This document shows, one piece after another, positions 56,230 to 63,832 of a stretch of DNA of 64,000 nt; the first letter of the stretch is position 1, and each line of letters begins with the position of its first letter. Source of the stretch: Tetradesmus obliquus (lineage: Eukaryota; Chlorophyta; Chlorophyceae; Sphaeropleales; Scenedesmaceae); contig CP126191.1 in assembly GCA_030272155.1 (NCBI GenBank), positions 6,904,501-6,968,500 on the forward strand, given 5' to 3'. The position numbers were made by a program, and so were the translations under genes. The notes under the pieces are model-generated. The model ran no database searches. It saw only the letters and a list, made by a program, of their open reading frames with translations, and had not been told where the DNA came from.

Positions 56230-57839
56230 GGTGGAGCCAGCAGGGGTGGTTGCTGAGGGTGGCCTGGCAGCAGCGGCTGGGAGGCTGGATGCGGTGGCTA
56301 GTTGCAGGCAGCTGCTGTTGTGTGCGCAGTCGTCAGACAAATCGCGCTGTGTGGTTGGCTGGGTGAAAGGAGGGGCCGTGGCAGGTGGTGCTGCAGCAGG
56401 GGCTGGGTGCCAGCAGGGTGATGCATGGGCGAGCCTGGCCTTGCAGGCTGCGGTTGCTGTGGAGGTGTCGAAACTGGTGGGGAGTCGGCGGCAGCTGTTC
56501 AGTGCTGTGCTGGTGCTTGTCAGGTAGATGGTGTTGCAGGAGATGCAAAGGTTGTAGCTGAGTTGTGAGTGTGTTGCTTGCAGGCAGGACAGTGTAGGAA
56601 CCGGTGCAGTGTGTTGGTTGCTCAGGTACGGTTTATGCACACAGTTTGATGCACTTTGCGCAACACAGGATGCCAGCGTCGTGGCTGAAAAGGGTGGTTT
56701 TGGCTTGGCCTTTGTTTGTCTGATTATCGGCACTCCCAGCGCGTGCTTTGGCCCTGTAGGTTGTCAATGTGTCACCAGTCATCCTTTCAGCAGGTGCTAC
56801 TATTGAGGCAGCAGCAGCGGGAGGTGGTCGTGGTATCATCACTAAGCACTGCAGACGTTGGGCACCCTTTGCTTGTGGGCTGCATGGTCGGCAGGGCAAG
56901 TGCTTTGGTCAGTGCTAGCATCATCACAGTGGGGTTGTTGGCATGGTGTGCGGTTCGTCCTTAATGGTGGCAGCGCCTCGTCACTACGGTGCAGGCTTGA
57001 TAGATGGCTGCTGCACAGCCTGCTTAAGTCCACTACTACATGTACAATGACAACTGTTTGTCAACACTGATTGAGCATGTTTGCAAGCAACAAGTAATTG
57101 TTGGCCGCTGGCACTCATGTCGTCTTTGGCAATGTGTACGGGTGGCTACCTGCAGTCATTCTCCTTGTCCTTCAACACTCGCAGGGATGCATCAGGGTGT
57201 TGCTTACAGCGTATCATGTCTGGCGGCACATCGCTGGGGTGCTTGTATTCGTCCTTGTTGCATCATCTTCCCGCATGGTTTGTCGTATCGATAACATATT
57301 CACGCATTGCCTGCCAGCTAGTATAGGTCGTAACCTACCCTTTGCAAGATGCATGGCCATAGCATGTGACAGGTGCACAGCACGACTCCTGCAAGTTGCT
57401 GCAGAGCAGTTGAGCTGGATGTTGGTGCATGGGGTTTGCGTACTTGCACTGTTACAACAACAGCTTGCTGCAGGCAGGGTTCTTGACTACTATCTTACGT
57501 GGGTTGCTGCTAGTGTTTTTCCAGCATCTTGCAACAGCATATATTGGCCTTGCAACGCGGCTATCCCTAGAAAAGTGCTGCTCCTTTGTGCAGTTTGTGC
57601 TGGGGTGTGTCGGCAGCTTTTGCTTCAGCTGCATGCAGCTTGTGCAGAACAGTAGTCGGCCCAGCACGTGAGCCAGAGTACCCGTTAGAACAACACCAAA
57701 CGTTCCTTGTTTGTTTAACTCGCTGTCACGCCTTCACTCTTTGTAGATCACTGCAAACATCTGCCGTTCCGTACTTTGCTTCGACATGCACGCATGCTAG
57801 CCTGCTTTCCGTGATTCTGGAACGCAGCGCAACACGGCG
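56230..57839. other. intergenic, GT-rich, no supported gene
   Basis: Downstream of the thylakoid-type gene and upstream of the translocase gene. The plus strand is strongly G+T-rich, so it gives hydrophobic open frames (longest 57098-57655) without motifs or conserved features. It probably holds a long 3' UTR and the translocase promoter near 57660-57839. Confidence 0.5.
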
Positions 57840-58713
57840 ATGATGAGCCATAAAGTCATATTTTCAGTGTTCGTAGTGATGGCTGCCTGCCATGAGCTAA
57901 CGTGCTGTTGGCAGAGGCGTTTGCTGCAGCAACGTAGGCCAACAGCAGCAGCATGCCAGGCTGTACAAAACACAAGAAATTCGCATGTTGTGTGCGGCTT
58001 ACAAACAGTAAATTTTTTTAAAAGAAAACCAGGCATCGTTTTGAGCGTGCCTGGCACACGCGGCGGCAGCACCAGCAGCAGCTGCAGCAACGGCGCCCAT
58101 GCAGCAGCAGGGGTGAGTCATACGCACGGTCAGTTTGCAACATACTTGAGTAGCATAAGCACGACTGGGTATCGTGCTGCTCCTCCTACAGTGAAAGTAG
58201 CAGCAGCAGGGCCGGATGCAGCGGCGTCTAGCTCGGCGATGGGCAACATGAGACCAGGTGGCAGCAGCAGCACCCCACAGCACCTGGAACAAGGGCAGCA
58301 GCAGCAGCAGCAGCGTGCACCAAACATGTCTGGGCTGCCCAACCCGCTGCAGCTGCTGTTTGGCAAGTCCTGGAGGAAGGCGGTGCTGCTGTCGGTGCTG
58401 TTCTTCGCCAGCACCTTCATCTTCACCATGCTGCAGGTGGGGCGTACTGCACCAGTAGTGTGACTGCATCAGTCGCACTACCAGTATGATGCTGTGTCAC
58501 TCACGCAGGCATACGTGAACAGAGACACTGCAGGAGCCCCTGTTGCTGCTAAGGAGCTGTACGCATACAGTGCCGCACATGGCCGATCACTTGTGTTTGC
58601 GGTTGCTGGCGAAGAGCCGCAGGCACTGTGCTGCACATGCTGCATCTCAGGCAGCAGTCACACACCACCCTTACGCTGTCACTAGCAGTCATCAGCGGCC
58701 CTGTAACCCCACA

Positions 58714-58746
<33 letters not shown>

Positions 58747-61700
58747 CCAGAGCCTGAAGGACGGCATTGTGGTCATGGCCATGGGTGCTGAGGCGCTGCC
58801 CTTCCTGACCACTCTGGGCAGCCTGCCCGCCTCGCTGGCCTTCTTCGGCTTCTACAGGACAGTGCTGGTGGGTGCGCTGCTGCTGCTGCTGCTGCTGCTG
58901 TAGTTGGCAGGCAGCCAATATGTTGCATTCTGGCAGGAACTGCTGCGTGCTCACACATGTCAGCGGCTAGTGCATGCACAGAGCTGACGCAGTCCTCAGC
59001 TGCTGACATCCCTGCTGATGCTTTGCCATTGTGCATTCGTCCTGCCACCTGCAGCTAACCACCCAACTCAGTCGCACCACGCTAGGCCAGCTCACGTGTC
59101 TGTTGTCAACTCCACCATCACGGTGCTCTGCTAACCGTATCTATCACGCGCCAGTGCCCCACCAGTAAATACCCGCTGCTCACGCCCCTCCTGCAGGTGC
59201 CACGCGTGCCCCCGCAGCACCTGTTCTACGCCACTGCCGCGCCCTTCCTGGCCTTCTACACCCTCTTCGCTGTGCTGCTGTACCCCCTGGCGCCGCACCT
59301 GCACCACCCAGCCTGGCTGGCAGGCCTTCCACAGCTGCTGCCGCAGGGCCTGCGGGCGCTGGCTGCAGTGCTGCAGCAGCCGCTGTACTCGCTGTTCTAC
59401 GTAGTGGCTGACCTGTACGGGCCTGTCATGATCTCGCTGGCCTTCTGGTGAGGCGGCAAGCAGCTGGGAGTGGTCGCAGCTGATGCCCTCTGCCAGCAGC
59501 TGGGACTGTGATGGTGTCAGGTGCAAAGAAGCAGCGCTTGCAGCAGCAGCAGGAGGGCGCTGCATGCCAGTCAGCAGCATCAGGACGAGGATAGCACTAG
59601 TCACCATTCAAACACTGAGGAGACACAAGCTTCACCTCGCTCCTGCCGCTGCTGGCCGCAGGACTGTGGCTGACGAGGTGTGCAGCATGGAGGAGGCGGG
59701 CCTGCTGTACCCCCGCCTGGGGCTGCTGGCCAACCTGGGGCTGGCTGGCAGCGGCGGCTTCATCGCTGCGGTGCACCGCGCTGTGGGGCCTGGCGGCATG
59801 GGCGCGGTGCTGCAGGTACTGACTAGTAGGGGTGGCCTGGGGACCTGTTGAGGGCGTGTGATGCCAGTAGGGTGGGCTGGGGCATAGTGAGGGGTGTGGG
59901 TCATGGCGTGGCGCTGAGGAGGCTGCTGCCATCCCCTGCCTACTGCTGTGCATGCTGCTGCTGCCTGGGGTGCCCTGAGGCCCTCACTGCATAGCGCCTT
60001 TGCCTGCCGCAGTTTGCAGATGTTGACTGCTGCTTGATCCTGCGGTACAGCAGGTGTGCGCACCAGCCGGCGACTCCTCTGCTGGACTGTGTAGACGAGG
60101 CACCCCAGACTGCTGCATGTTATGTTGCAGGCACAGCAGGCGCATGATGTCTGGTGTACGAATGTCGGTGTTTCCTGTTTTCCGCTGGCGCAGGTGCTGG
60201 TGCTGGCCATGCTGGTCACTGCGGGGCTGATGTTTGGCTGCAAGGCGCTGCTCAACAAGCACTACCTGGCCCTGGGCCCACAGCTGCACCACCAGCAACA
60301 GCAGCACCACCAGCAACACCACCAACCGCAGCAGCAGCTGCAGAAGCGCCAGCCCCAGCACCAGCAGCCCCTGCAGCAGCAAGGCTCCCAGCACCAGCAG
60401 CACAGTGCCAGCCTCTCCCGGCCTGGCTCTGTGCTGCCAGCTGCCACTGCCCAGCAGCAGCAGCAGCAGCAGCCAGGGCCCAGGGCCTCATGGGGCCAGG
60501 TGCTGGGTGTGCTGTGCAGCAACCCTACAGCAGCAGCGCTGGCCAGCAGTGTGGTTGGCTTCAGCGTGGCCTACAGGATGTGGGAGTACAGCTTCAAGGC
60601 ACAGGTAGGGGTTGGGGGTTGGGGTGAGGTGTGGGGTGGCAGGTGGTGGCACTGCTGCACAGGCATGTACTGGCTGGCTGCGTGTGGACTGGTATAGCCC
60701 AGGCCGTGCAGAGGAAATGAAGATAATGACACACTCAAACGACTCGTACATTGTAGCAATAGTGTGCCTGACTGTGCTGCCCCTGTAACAGTCGGATGCG
60801 CTGCAGTCACCGCCCTCTTGCATTGCCAGCCTGCCAGCCTGTAGTCTGTGATTTGCAGCGCTCTGCTGTTGCTGTGCACTGCTCTGTGGTTGCAGAACCC
60901 TGAGTAACACATGCCATGCTCGGTGCTTGCCTATAGCCAGCACACTCGCAGTGAAACACTGTTGGGTGTTAGATTAAAGAAAAAGTTGTTGGGGCACGTC
61001 CTTGTCGAATTCAGTCTGGCCGCCTTTGTGTGAAAAAGTGAAAAGTATCTGGATACACCCAACCCCTACACACGCGTCTGCGATTACGAGCTTGAACACC
61101 CCGTGCTTTCATGGAAGCTAATCTTTATGGTGGAGATTGAGGGAACAGCTCTTGTGTAGGATGGCCATGCCCCAGCTTGCGCTTACCGAGGTGCCCGCTT
61201 GCTTGCGGGACCCGCTATCCTTCAAGTTTCTCAATGATTTGATCGTTCTTGGTATCAATGTAGACCGTTTCGCAGCGAAACCTGTCTACATTGATACCAA
61301 GATCGATCAAATCATTGAGAAACTTGAAGTATAGCGGGTCCCGCAAGCAAGCGGGCACCTCGGTAAGCGCAAGCTGGGGCATGGCCATCCTACACAAGAG
61401 CTGTTCCCTCAATCTCCACCATAAAGATTAGCTTCCATGAAAGCACGGGGTGTTCAAGCTCGTAATCGCAGACGCGTGTGTAGGGGTTGGGTGTTTGTTC
61501 GAGTTTCTGCTGTTTTGAGTGGTGCTTGGTTACTGGCTCATGTGAGTGCGGATTGTTGCCACCGCTGTGCTGCATCTGCATGTCCCTGGTTGGTGTGGCT
61601 CTGTGCTTGTTTCGGGATTGTTTGTGTTGGCACGCTTTGTTTGCATTGCCTGTCGGTTGTTTGGTGCTAGTGTTGGCTTGTGATGGCTTGCTTGTGCCTC

Positions 61701-63734
61701 AGTCTTCTCTTTTGGGAGGGGGTGAAGGTGTAGGCTACACACAGCGCTGACTGATAGACTTCACTGAAGCTTTGTGGTGTGATCTACCACAGCCAGAGTA
61801 AGGATGGAAAGGTGTTGCAGCTTCTGTGTGTACGCCTGCTGTGATAAAAGAGTCAGCCTGAGGCACTGCGCTTCTAGGTTCAGCTGTTATAACAGTGTTA
61901 TGCTGAGTCAGCGTAACAGTTACAGCTACAGGTTATGAAATGCCGTGAGTTGGCAGGTGTGAAGAAGAGAAAGGAAGTATGTTGCAACGCTGTCAAGCGT
62001 GTGCAGACGATGTGGCCGTCGAATGTCACAAGGTAACAAATCCAGTGCTACAAGCCTGCCAGCCTGCTAGCCTGTTGTTTGTCCTTGCATGCCCTGCCTG
62101 CAGCAACAATGCAACAGCAGTGCTTGCTGCAGCACATGCACGCCATGGTGCTGACTTGCTGCTGCATCTCTGGTGTGTTGTGTTTCTGCAGCTGCAGCTG
62201 GCTGCAGCGGACAGCGCCGCCTACTGCTGCCGCCTGGCTGAGATCCAGTCTGCTGTAGGCCTGGCCACCATGGGCCTCATGCTGGGCTCACGCCTCATCT
62301 TCAAGGTGGGAGGTGCTCCAGCATTAAGTACACAAGCACTGTTGACAGAGAGTTTGCAAAGCTACATGTCAGCATTTCGATCACTGTGTTTGGCCCTGGG
62401 AGCTGTCTCTTCAGCGAAATGGTGCGCTTGGCATCAGCAGTGTCTGCATACATGTGGGCTGGAGCCTGCCAAGCAGTGTGCAATGATTGTTCCAGGATCG
62501 AGTGCCTGCAGGTGCAGCGTCCTTTACGCTTGTCGTACACGCGCTTAGTTGTGCCAAACCACACGCATATGTGATGTACACCACAAAGATATCTCTGCCA
62601 CTGCCGCCACTGATGTCAAGCCGTGTGTGCTGAAGCGATGTGCTGTGCTGCACTGTGCCGCGCTGCAGTACTTGGGCTGGGCTGGCGCTGCACTGATCAG
62701 CCCACTCTCGCTGCTGCTGCCAGGGGCAGCTTTCTTCAGCTGCAGCCTCTTGGCAAAGTCAGCAGCAGCAGCAAATACAGCAGCAGCGGCGGCAAGCAGC
62801 AGCAGCAGCAGCAGTGCTGGACTTCTCAGCTGGCTGGCAGCTGCAGCAACATCGGCTGGAGCACACTTGGTTGATCAGCTCAGGTCATCAGGGTTGGCTC
62901 TGCCTTTTGGGATCACCAGGACTGCTGCAGCTTGACAGTGAGGCTCTAGTTGTGATGGGGCTAAGGGCTGGCTTTGCCACTGCGCTGGCTGCGTGTGCGT
63001 GCCACAACAGCCTGTTCACGCCCTGCAAGCAGATGGTGTACAAGACGCTGCCGCAGCAGCAGCAGGCTGAGAGCAAGGCGGCAGTGGACCTGGTGGGAGG
63101 GCAGGTGAGGGGCTGGCGGGAGGGAGGAGGAGTGGAGAGGTATGGCTTTTCACGAGGGGGGCAGAGGGTCCCCTAGCGCATACTACATAGTGTCTAATAT
63201 GCAAGGATTGCAGCTGTGAGTCGTAACGTCCTTGTTGGTTCCCCGCAGCTGCAGGTGCAACTGCACGGCAGCATGCCCTGGCTGACACCTAAGTTGCATT
63301 CCAGCATGCAGCATTGCGTTGCGGCTCTGTGCTGTGAGTGATCATGCAAGCATGTGTGGCCAGGCTGCACAAGTAGACGCAGCGTAGGCAGCAAGTTGCC
63401 AGCAGACTGCTGGGGCAGTGAGGCGTCCATCCCTTGCACGCCCGTGCCTGACCTGCGGCATGCTGCTGTGTGCCCCGCCTGCTGCAGTTTGCCAAGTCCG
63501 CAGCAGGCTGGCTGCTGCAGGCGCTGCTGCTGGCCTATGGCAACATCGCAGCAGCGCTGCCGGCTTGCTTCATCATCTTCGTAGCGGCACTAGCTGCATG
63601 GCTAGCCGCCACGCTACACCTGGCACAGCAGATGCGCACGTTCTCCGCAGCGCCGCCGGCAGCAGCTACTGCAGCTGAAGGCCTTGCAGTGGAGCTTCTC
63701 GGAGCAGTGGCAACAGGGCAGGCAGCGCTGGCAG

Positions 63735-63766
<32 letters not shown>

Positions 63767-63832
63767 GTTGATGGGTGGTGGCTGCCGCTGCCTCGAGAGC
63801 TTGCTGCTGCCGCAGCTGCTGCGGTGCGCTGA
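57840..63832 (+). CDS. NTT: plastid-type ATP/ADP translocase (NTT/TlcA family)
   Basis: This nucleotide transporter exchanges cytosolic ATP for stromal ADP across the plastid inner envelope. Exons: 57840-58436, 58751-58867, 59197-59447, 59662-59815, 60194-60604, 62192-62305, 62669-62757, 62939-63104 and 63488-63832, giving 747 residues. The 62757/62939 junction is one option; reading on from 62757 would add an Ala/Ser-rich insert. The first 170 residues are a long transit and linker region. Family blocks: FGKSWRKAVLLSVLFFASTF, then LKDGIVVMAMGAEALPFLTT (the conserved Lys-Asp), FYVVADLYGPVMISLAFW, YPRLGLLANLGLAGSGGF, SVAYRMWEYSFKAQ (conserved Glu and Lys), CHNSLFTPCKQMVYKTLP and the C-terminal span LPACFIIFVAALAAWLAATL. 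An unusual His/Gln-rich loop of about 70 residues (around 60285-60475) lies between central spans. The intron 60605-62191 is by far the longest and contains a large foldback. Confidence 0.9.
61055..61494. repeat. near-perfect 219-base foldback (inverted repeat) in a translocase intron
   Basis: Left arm 61055-61273 and right arm 61275-61494 are reverse complements around a single-base centre at 61274. I count three differences: 61219, 61246, and a substitution plus one-base indel beside the centre (ccg against cagg). Pairing ends sharply outside acaccc...gggtgt. No target-site duplication is visible. Each arm read in one direction contains protein-like frames (for example PYTRVCDYELEHPVLSWKLI), so the arm may derive from a coding sequence. 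Transcribed within the pre-mRNA it would form a long double-stranded hairpin. Confidence 0.95.

Follow-up and report, generated by a model that had tools for sequence, protein, structure and literature searches.

A long palindrome in a predicted intron of a TLC transporter gene

The window analyzed here, a 64,000-nucleotide stretch of the Tetradesmus obliquus genome, contains a putative gene for a TLC-type ATP/ADP transporter, and one predicted intron of this gene (1,587 nt; Table 1) holds a long palindrome. The GT and AG borders at 60605 and 62191 would join the adjoining exon frames in phase 0, and the intron measures 370 nt once the insertion described below and one target duplication are subtracted. 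Matches to PF03219 (TLC) were found on both sides of the intron and in profile order: one, in the frame 59086-59451, scored above the cut-off (57.1 bits vs 21) and four scored below it (16-18 bits), the sub-cut-off frames downstream of the intron being 62549-62935, 62697-63176 and 63452-63832. The two exons adjoining the intron have no TLC match of their own. An intronic position had been proposed in the original prediction, and the TLC frames on both sides support it by homology.

The deposited protein OEZ86_011753 (P0122, 222 aa) aligns in four pieces to 58326-59848 and ends at 59848, upstream of the palindrome intron. Because it ends before the intron, continuation of the gene past this point rests on homology, and the deposited gene model at this locus may be truncated. 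Across 57801-59851 and beyond, TLC-like frames run to about 63600, past the end of the deposited protein.

The palindrome itself consists of arms of 219 and 220 nt on either side of a single central A at 61274, and a full alignment agrees with the arm lengths, the one-base centre and the three differences between the arms that had been reported for it. The inverted arms 61055-61270 and 61279-61494 are 98% complementary and free of gaps; the differences lie at 61219, 61246 and 61266-61267 (CG in the left arm vs AGG in the right), and the right arm carries the parental state at all three sites. The expectation that the sense RNA would form a paired hairpin of about 220 bp was borne out by the predicted fold of 61045-61504, which has an energy of −449.7 kcal/mol compared with −143.6 (sd 5.8) for 100 shuffled sequences (z = −53), none of which folded as well (0 of 100). 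A transcript of this region would thus be predicted to fold into a hairpin, as is looked for in a miRNA gene.

The palindrome is part of a larger insertion

The palindrome is part of a larger insertion and is not a free-standing hairpin gene. When its flanks were compared with other loci, sequence common to a family of repeats was found to extend to both sides of it. The palindrome described in the original prediction was therefore confirmed as a structure, and what had been missed was its place within the larger repeat 60840-62052. This insertion is a copy of a Ty3/gypsy-like retrotransposon family, with the ends of the family and a 4-bp target duplication, and both palindrome arms are the 5′ region of the family (part of block X, the tRNA-Ala primer-binding site and the start of ORF1). 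Compared with 19 other copies, block B shows 85-99% identity.

Table 1. Coordinates of the host intron, the insertion and its parts, and the fuller copies of the parent family.
Feature	Position	Strand	Remarks
Inferred intron of the TLC ATP/ADP transporter gene	60605-62191	+	GT/AG borders; phase-0 exons; PF03219 in further exons
Left target-site duplication, AGCC	60836-60839	+	Flank of insertion
Non-autonomous retrotransposon copy, TGTAG...CTACA	60840-62052	+	1,213 bp; sense to host gene
Block A	60840-60971	+	132 bp; terminal at the family 5′ end and recurring close to the 3′ end in fuller copies
Block X	60972-61127	+	156 bp; follows A and precedes the primer-binding site
Left palindrome arm	61055-61273	+	219 nt; holds all three departures from both parents and from the right arm
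Primer-binding site	61128-61145	+	Exact complement of the last 15 nt of the tRNA-Ala gene plus CCA
Leader and ORF1 start	61146-61278	+	ATG at 61161, MAMPQLALTEVPACLRDP...; same in parent copies L003 and L004
Parental self-complement TCGC-A-GCGA, inferred turn point	61270-61278	+	Central base 61274
Right palindrome arm	61275-61494	−	220 nt; leader, primer-binding site and X (from X base 84) copied in reverse
Inverted second copy of primer-binding site	61404-61421	−	In right arm
9-nt overlap GTTGGGTGT	61486-61494	+	Reverse copy passes to the family A/B junction
Block B	61487-62052	+	566 bp; terminal at the family 3′ end, where it reads CTACA
Right target-site duplication, AGCC	62053-62056	+	Flank of insertion
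Fuller family copy L034	L034:2249-9377	−	Both ends and coding sequence
Fuller family copy L040	L040:5736-8811	−	Both ends and coding sequence
Fuller family copy L045	L045:1224-4789	+	Both ends and coding sequence

Other identities for the insertion were considered. The original prediction had pointed to an inverted duplication of a gene fragment; the arm is retrotransposon 5′ region and contains no fragment of a host gene, and an inverted duplication of the host gene is ruled out by the at least 19 arm matches outside the window, all of them family copies. The accompanying suggestion that the arm was partly protein-derived, with a parent elsewhere in the genome, held: its protein-like stretch is the beginning of the retrotransposon ORF1. 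A DNA transposon or MITE, as the TGTAG and CTACA ends might suggest, is ruled out by a full copy with pol domains and by the tRNA primer-binding site. The long terminal inverted repeats of Foldback elements and MITEs are also missing from the insertion, since its palindrome is internal and its ends have just TGTAG/CTACA plus a few more bases in common.

The parent family is Ty3/gypsy-like with unusual ends

The search of the same genome with the arm, proposed earlier as a way to find a parent gene, returned copies of this retrotransposon family: at least 21 matches including the two arms in the window, with each of the at least 19 located elsewhere lying in a family copy. A search of the genome with 90 bases gave at least 20 matches, two of them in the window. 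Allowing up to 2 mismatches and counting the window, the start motif of the family occurs at 54 places and the end motif at 70, as opposed to 0 for the reversed control. The 4-bp target duplication matches at all four positions in 18 of 20 two-ended units and at three of four in the other two (L011 and L053), when the left end of L045 is read as L021.

Coding capacity was assessed in L034, which has two long open frames, ORF1 (1,052 aa) and pol (1,080 aa). The pol domains occur in the order RVT_1, RT_RNaseH, PHD, H2C2 and rve, the rve match being sub-threshold (27.9 of 32.6 bits). The best match of this pol to a solved structure is Ty3-G Gag-Pol (E 1.1e-95), and PFV integrase is also matched (E 1.2e-8). 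Among predicted proteins from public genomes and metagenomes, its relatives reach 69% identity (best 120 of 1,417). A PHD finger lies between RNase H and integrase in L034:2978-6220 (− strand), and 58 of the 60 best-ranked pol relatives have one too. ORF1 of L034 gave no match in Pfam, a search for its relatives found none at E ≤ 0.001, and it may be regarded as Gag-like by position only. Zinc-knuckle and protease frames in L032 were dropped as a candidate Gag of the family, as they lie outside L032:7244-9661, the part aligned to L034; further frames in L032 and L003 were not counted to the family because the L034 alignment covers only this part of L032.

The terminal layout of the family is unusual for an integrase-bearing element. 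In L034, L040 and L045 the blocks are arranged as A1-X-PBS-...-B1 (21 bp)-TAA-A2 (132 bp)-B2 (566 bp). Most of A1 and X is missing from L034, and the 5′ A-X-PBS region is intact in L040 and L045; no second block X was found at the 3′ end of these three copies. The arrangement B1-TAA-A2-B2 is also seen in L060 and in the short stretch L061, as far as those stretches reach. The 5′ and 3′ ends thus share only the 132-bp block A, and because they are not two identical LTRs we label the family Ty3/gypsy-like only. By eye, no purine run that could serve as a polypurine tract lies directly before A2 in L034, L040, L045 or L060; a short GGAGGG occurs about 50 nt upstream of A2 in three of these four. 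Seven A-B units (L053-L059; 678-713 bp), six of them with perfect duplications, look like recombinants between A1 and A2.

At L014/L046 (C3 ~278,130-278,460), a tandem B-TAA-A-X, with the TAA spacer as in B1-TAA-A2, resembles a circle junction. In L009, a family copy is preceded, at a distance of a few hundred bases, by a perfect tandem repeat with a period of 50 bp (positions 1-823).

Most sister copies examined break where the primer-binding site ends

The 18-nt primer-binding site includes the complement of a CCA that is not gene-encoded (Table 1); tRNA-Ala genes ending in the remaining 15 nt were found in four of the five short stretches tested (L048, L050, L051 and L052). In L013 (around 1482-1535), 36 nt of tRNA-Ala are present, namely the 18-nt primer site and 18 more, followed by block B. 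From its sequence, L013 apparently records a plus-strand synthesis that read on through the tRNA primer, its product now fixed in the genome.

We compared where the 19 other copies examined depart from the family sequence. In 13, including L013 after its tRNA extension, the break lies at nt 15-19 of the primer-binding site; four break earlier (L015, L018, L019 and L020) and two run on into the leader (L003 and L004). For two of the 13, L005 and L014, the exact break is ambiguous, as they join a tandem repeat that holds the primer-site word; leaving both out gives 11 of 17. The end of the primer site is the expected end of plus-strand strong-stop DNA, as outlined in parts of PMC5371799 and PMC3187697. 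The family looks as if misplaced plus-strand transfer were a usual source of its rearranged copies.

After the primer-site break, copies among L005-L021 go on into block A or B, pol, satellite or unidentified sequence. A tandem repeat with a period of ~161 bp, which carries a primer-site word of 15-19 nt, occurs at L005 1574-2070, at G000 C5:6208141-6209566 and at C8:157212-157548.

The insertion is apparently young

No base private to the window was found in A plus X (215 bp, compared with 18 copies), in X and the primer-binding site of either arm (91 bp, 18 copies) or in B (566 bp, 19 copies). The insertion is apparently young, and the recent origin originally suggested for the palindrome apparently holds, as the insertion outside the inner arms has no private base in the window. 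When the leader was compared with two copies, the left arm alone showed three changes, which precede the turn by 11-59 nt; as only two copies were available for this comparison, a variant inherited from an unseen source copy might be taken for a private one. Position 61232 and its mate differ from both compared copies and are alike in both arms. With a uniform spread, the chance that three changes fall in one such 60-nt stretch is about 1e-4, by arithmetic done after the fact. A right arm copied from the left arm itself should have the private changes of the left; it does not, which leaves a sister template or changes of later date. In the simplest view the return copy was made from a sister molecule, or else the changes arose later or through error-prone synthesis.

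A strand that turned back is the probable origin of the palindrome

We consider it probable that the palindrome arose by rearrangement within a young, non-autonomous Ty3/gypsy-like copy, when a strand turned back at a self-complement. Sense-strand DNA synthesis would have run through A, X, the primer-binding site and the leader into the start of ORF1, where the growing 3′ end ...TCGCAGCGA would have turned back at a 4-nt self-complement and copied the same 5′ region backward, with itself or a sister molecule as template. The strand would then have switched, by way of the 9-nt overlap at 61486-61494, to the A/B junction of the family 3′ end; synthesis would have run on to CTACA, and the product would have integrated in the intron.

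Both junctions of the palindrome fit strand switching during DNA synthesis. The left arm follows L003 through A, X, primer-binding site and leader, and L004 agrees from the primer site onward. At the putative turn point these two parents read TTTCGCAGCGAGC and the window reads TTTCGCAGCGAAAC; divergence begins directly after GCGA, where the parents have TTTCGCAGCGA-GCTG and the window has TTTCGCAGCGA-AACC. In L003 the turn point can form a 4-bp stem with a 1-nt loop. Stems of 4 bp with loops of 0-3 nt occur at 62 of 1,840 positions (3.4%) of the L003 stretch, so a self-complement at the turn is supportive but inconclusive. The central A matches the parents on the + strand only, which indicates that the left arm came first and that the sense strand was growing. 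If the other strand had grown first, the central base on the + strand would be T, and that order is disfavored; it would also, by our reasoning, need three switches as opposed to two. As to the second junction, none of 200,000 random sequence pairs shared 9 nt. The antisense 5′ region and A-B have a second 9-mer in common, so such overlaps are not unique.

The likeliest setting for these switches is plus-strand synthesis by the reverse transcriptase of the element, and a palindrome made in this way would be a by-product without selected function. Alternatively, a longer copy may have inserted first and later suffered a break or stalled fork, with fold-back synthesis and microhomology joining deleting its interior. 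Synthesis-dependent end joining gives fold-back and microhomology junctions, so the 4-nt fold-back and the 9-nt overlap are expected from such repair as well, and error-prone synthesis could yield the three changes, which all lie less than about 60 nt from the turn. That the parents L003 and L004 themselves lack a break at the primer site also counts against a reverse-transcription setting, as do the earlier breaks in four of the 19 copies. However, the breaks at the primer-site end in 13 of 19 sister copies, which lie at other loci, favor reverse transcription over later chromosomal repair, without proving it, and the tRNA sequence in L013 points to reverse transcription as a usual source of rearrangement in this family. 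On balance we regard later repair as unlikely, while giving it appreciable weight. An artefact of assembly was considered too, as foldback chimaeras do create palindromes. In such a chimaera one would not look for mirroring that ends after 219 bp, where a 9-nt junction leads into another block of the family, nor for a correct 3′ end, matching AGCC duplications and arms that differ at three places; with these features an artefact is scarcely credible, and the earlier judgment that the locus is real rather than a foldback can be upheld. In the titles and abstract openings of the open-licence PMC literature searched, no fold-back palindrome in a retroelement is described. By title, none of the 12 open-licence PMC papers listed, out of 4,670 for T. 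obliquus transposons, concerns this family.

A silencing function is doubtful

Origin by a turned-back strand can be combined with a function, as can origin by repair. In analogy to Mu killer, the intron hairpin might be diced into small RNAs directed against the leader and ORF1 start of the parent element, a proposal to which we give little credence. Because the insertion has the sense orientation in the intron, the pre-mRNA would contain the hairpin, a near-perfect predicted RNA hairpin of 219 bp. Potential targets are present: the arm is matched by L003 over 1-218 (96%) and by L004/L034 over 68-218 (92%), the only other places that keep the leader among the matches listed. Introns are also a source of miRNAs in Chlamydomonas (Valli 2016, as cited in PMC5511227). 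On the other hand, the insertion looks young and so bears no sign of selection, and Rfam at gathering thresholds gives no match anywhere in the window. Most young miRNAs are thought to be neutral, according to a passage in PMC5511227, and for this reason we take the hairpin as a by-product. By analogy, then, it is a long shot that faulty reverse transcription in one transposition made an anti-element hairpin in an intron and that RNAi silences the few copies keeping the leader. If true, the palindrome would be a retrotransposon equivalent of Mu killer, newly born and aimed at the parent element.

Significance and comparison with known systems

The palindrome is real, apparently young and largely explained, and the class to which it belongs, rearranged non-autonomous retrotransposon copies, is already known. 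Its significance is that the birth of a near-perfect palindrome from a retrotransposon can be read to the base at its junctions (growing strand, turn point and exit point). Hairpin loci against transposons could plausibly be supplied by such events.

The nearest comparison is with internally deleted Ty3/gypsy-like copies. Like these, the window copy keeps its termini and primer-binding site, is non-coding and has a 4-bp duplication, and its strand-switch-like junctions resemble those of other family copies. Unlike these, it has a head-to-head inverted 5′ region, seen in none of the 19 other copies examined, and the termini of its family are not two identical LTRs. Several features place the family near Ty3: the pol order RT-RNase H-integrase with Ty3 as the nearest relative (rve match below the cut-off), TGTAG...CTACA ends with a 4-bp duplication, and a tRNA-Ala primer-binding site near the 5′ end. 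Ty3 is the closest solved relative of the family pol. As described in part of PMC5371799, a tRNA primes the Ty3 minus strand, and the plus strand copies part of the tRNA, 12 nt, before transfer, with no tRNA sequence being inherited. The primer-binding site of the present family, in contrast, has 18 nt, and L013 inherited 36 nt of tRNA-Ala.

With Mu killer of maize, as presented in sections of PMC3440606, the window copy shares an internally deleted element, an inverted duplication of the element's own coding end and a position near a transcribed gene; the duplicated coding end of the parent element is present here. Mu killer goes back to a DNA transposon, a hairpin RNA of about 4 kb is proposed for it and its silencing was shown genetically (PMC3440606), whereas the window copy comes from a retrotransposon, its arms measure 219 nt and any silencing by it is hypothetical.

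The fuller family copies also recall another class in their A1-...-B1-A2-B2 layout (three copies, with B1 of 21 bp and A1 truncated in L034). PAT-like/DIRS retrotransposons have split direct repeats (A1-ORF-B1-A2-B2), a tyrosine recombinase and no target duplication. The family differs from them in that its pol matches a DDE-type integrase (rve) and its insertions have 4-bp duplications; neither of the two L034 frames had a tyrosine recombinase among its Pfam matches. Structurally differing 5′ and 3′ terminal repeats are likewise known from HIV-1 proviruses with asymmetric LTRs, which made up 26 of 88 and commonly had 3′ deletions in individual proviruses, as given in part of PMC9278108. Unlike in those proviruses, the asymmetry of the present family recurs in several copies at different sites.
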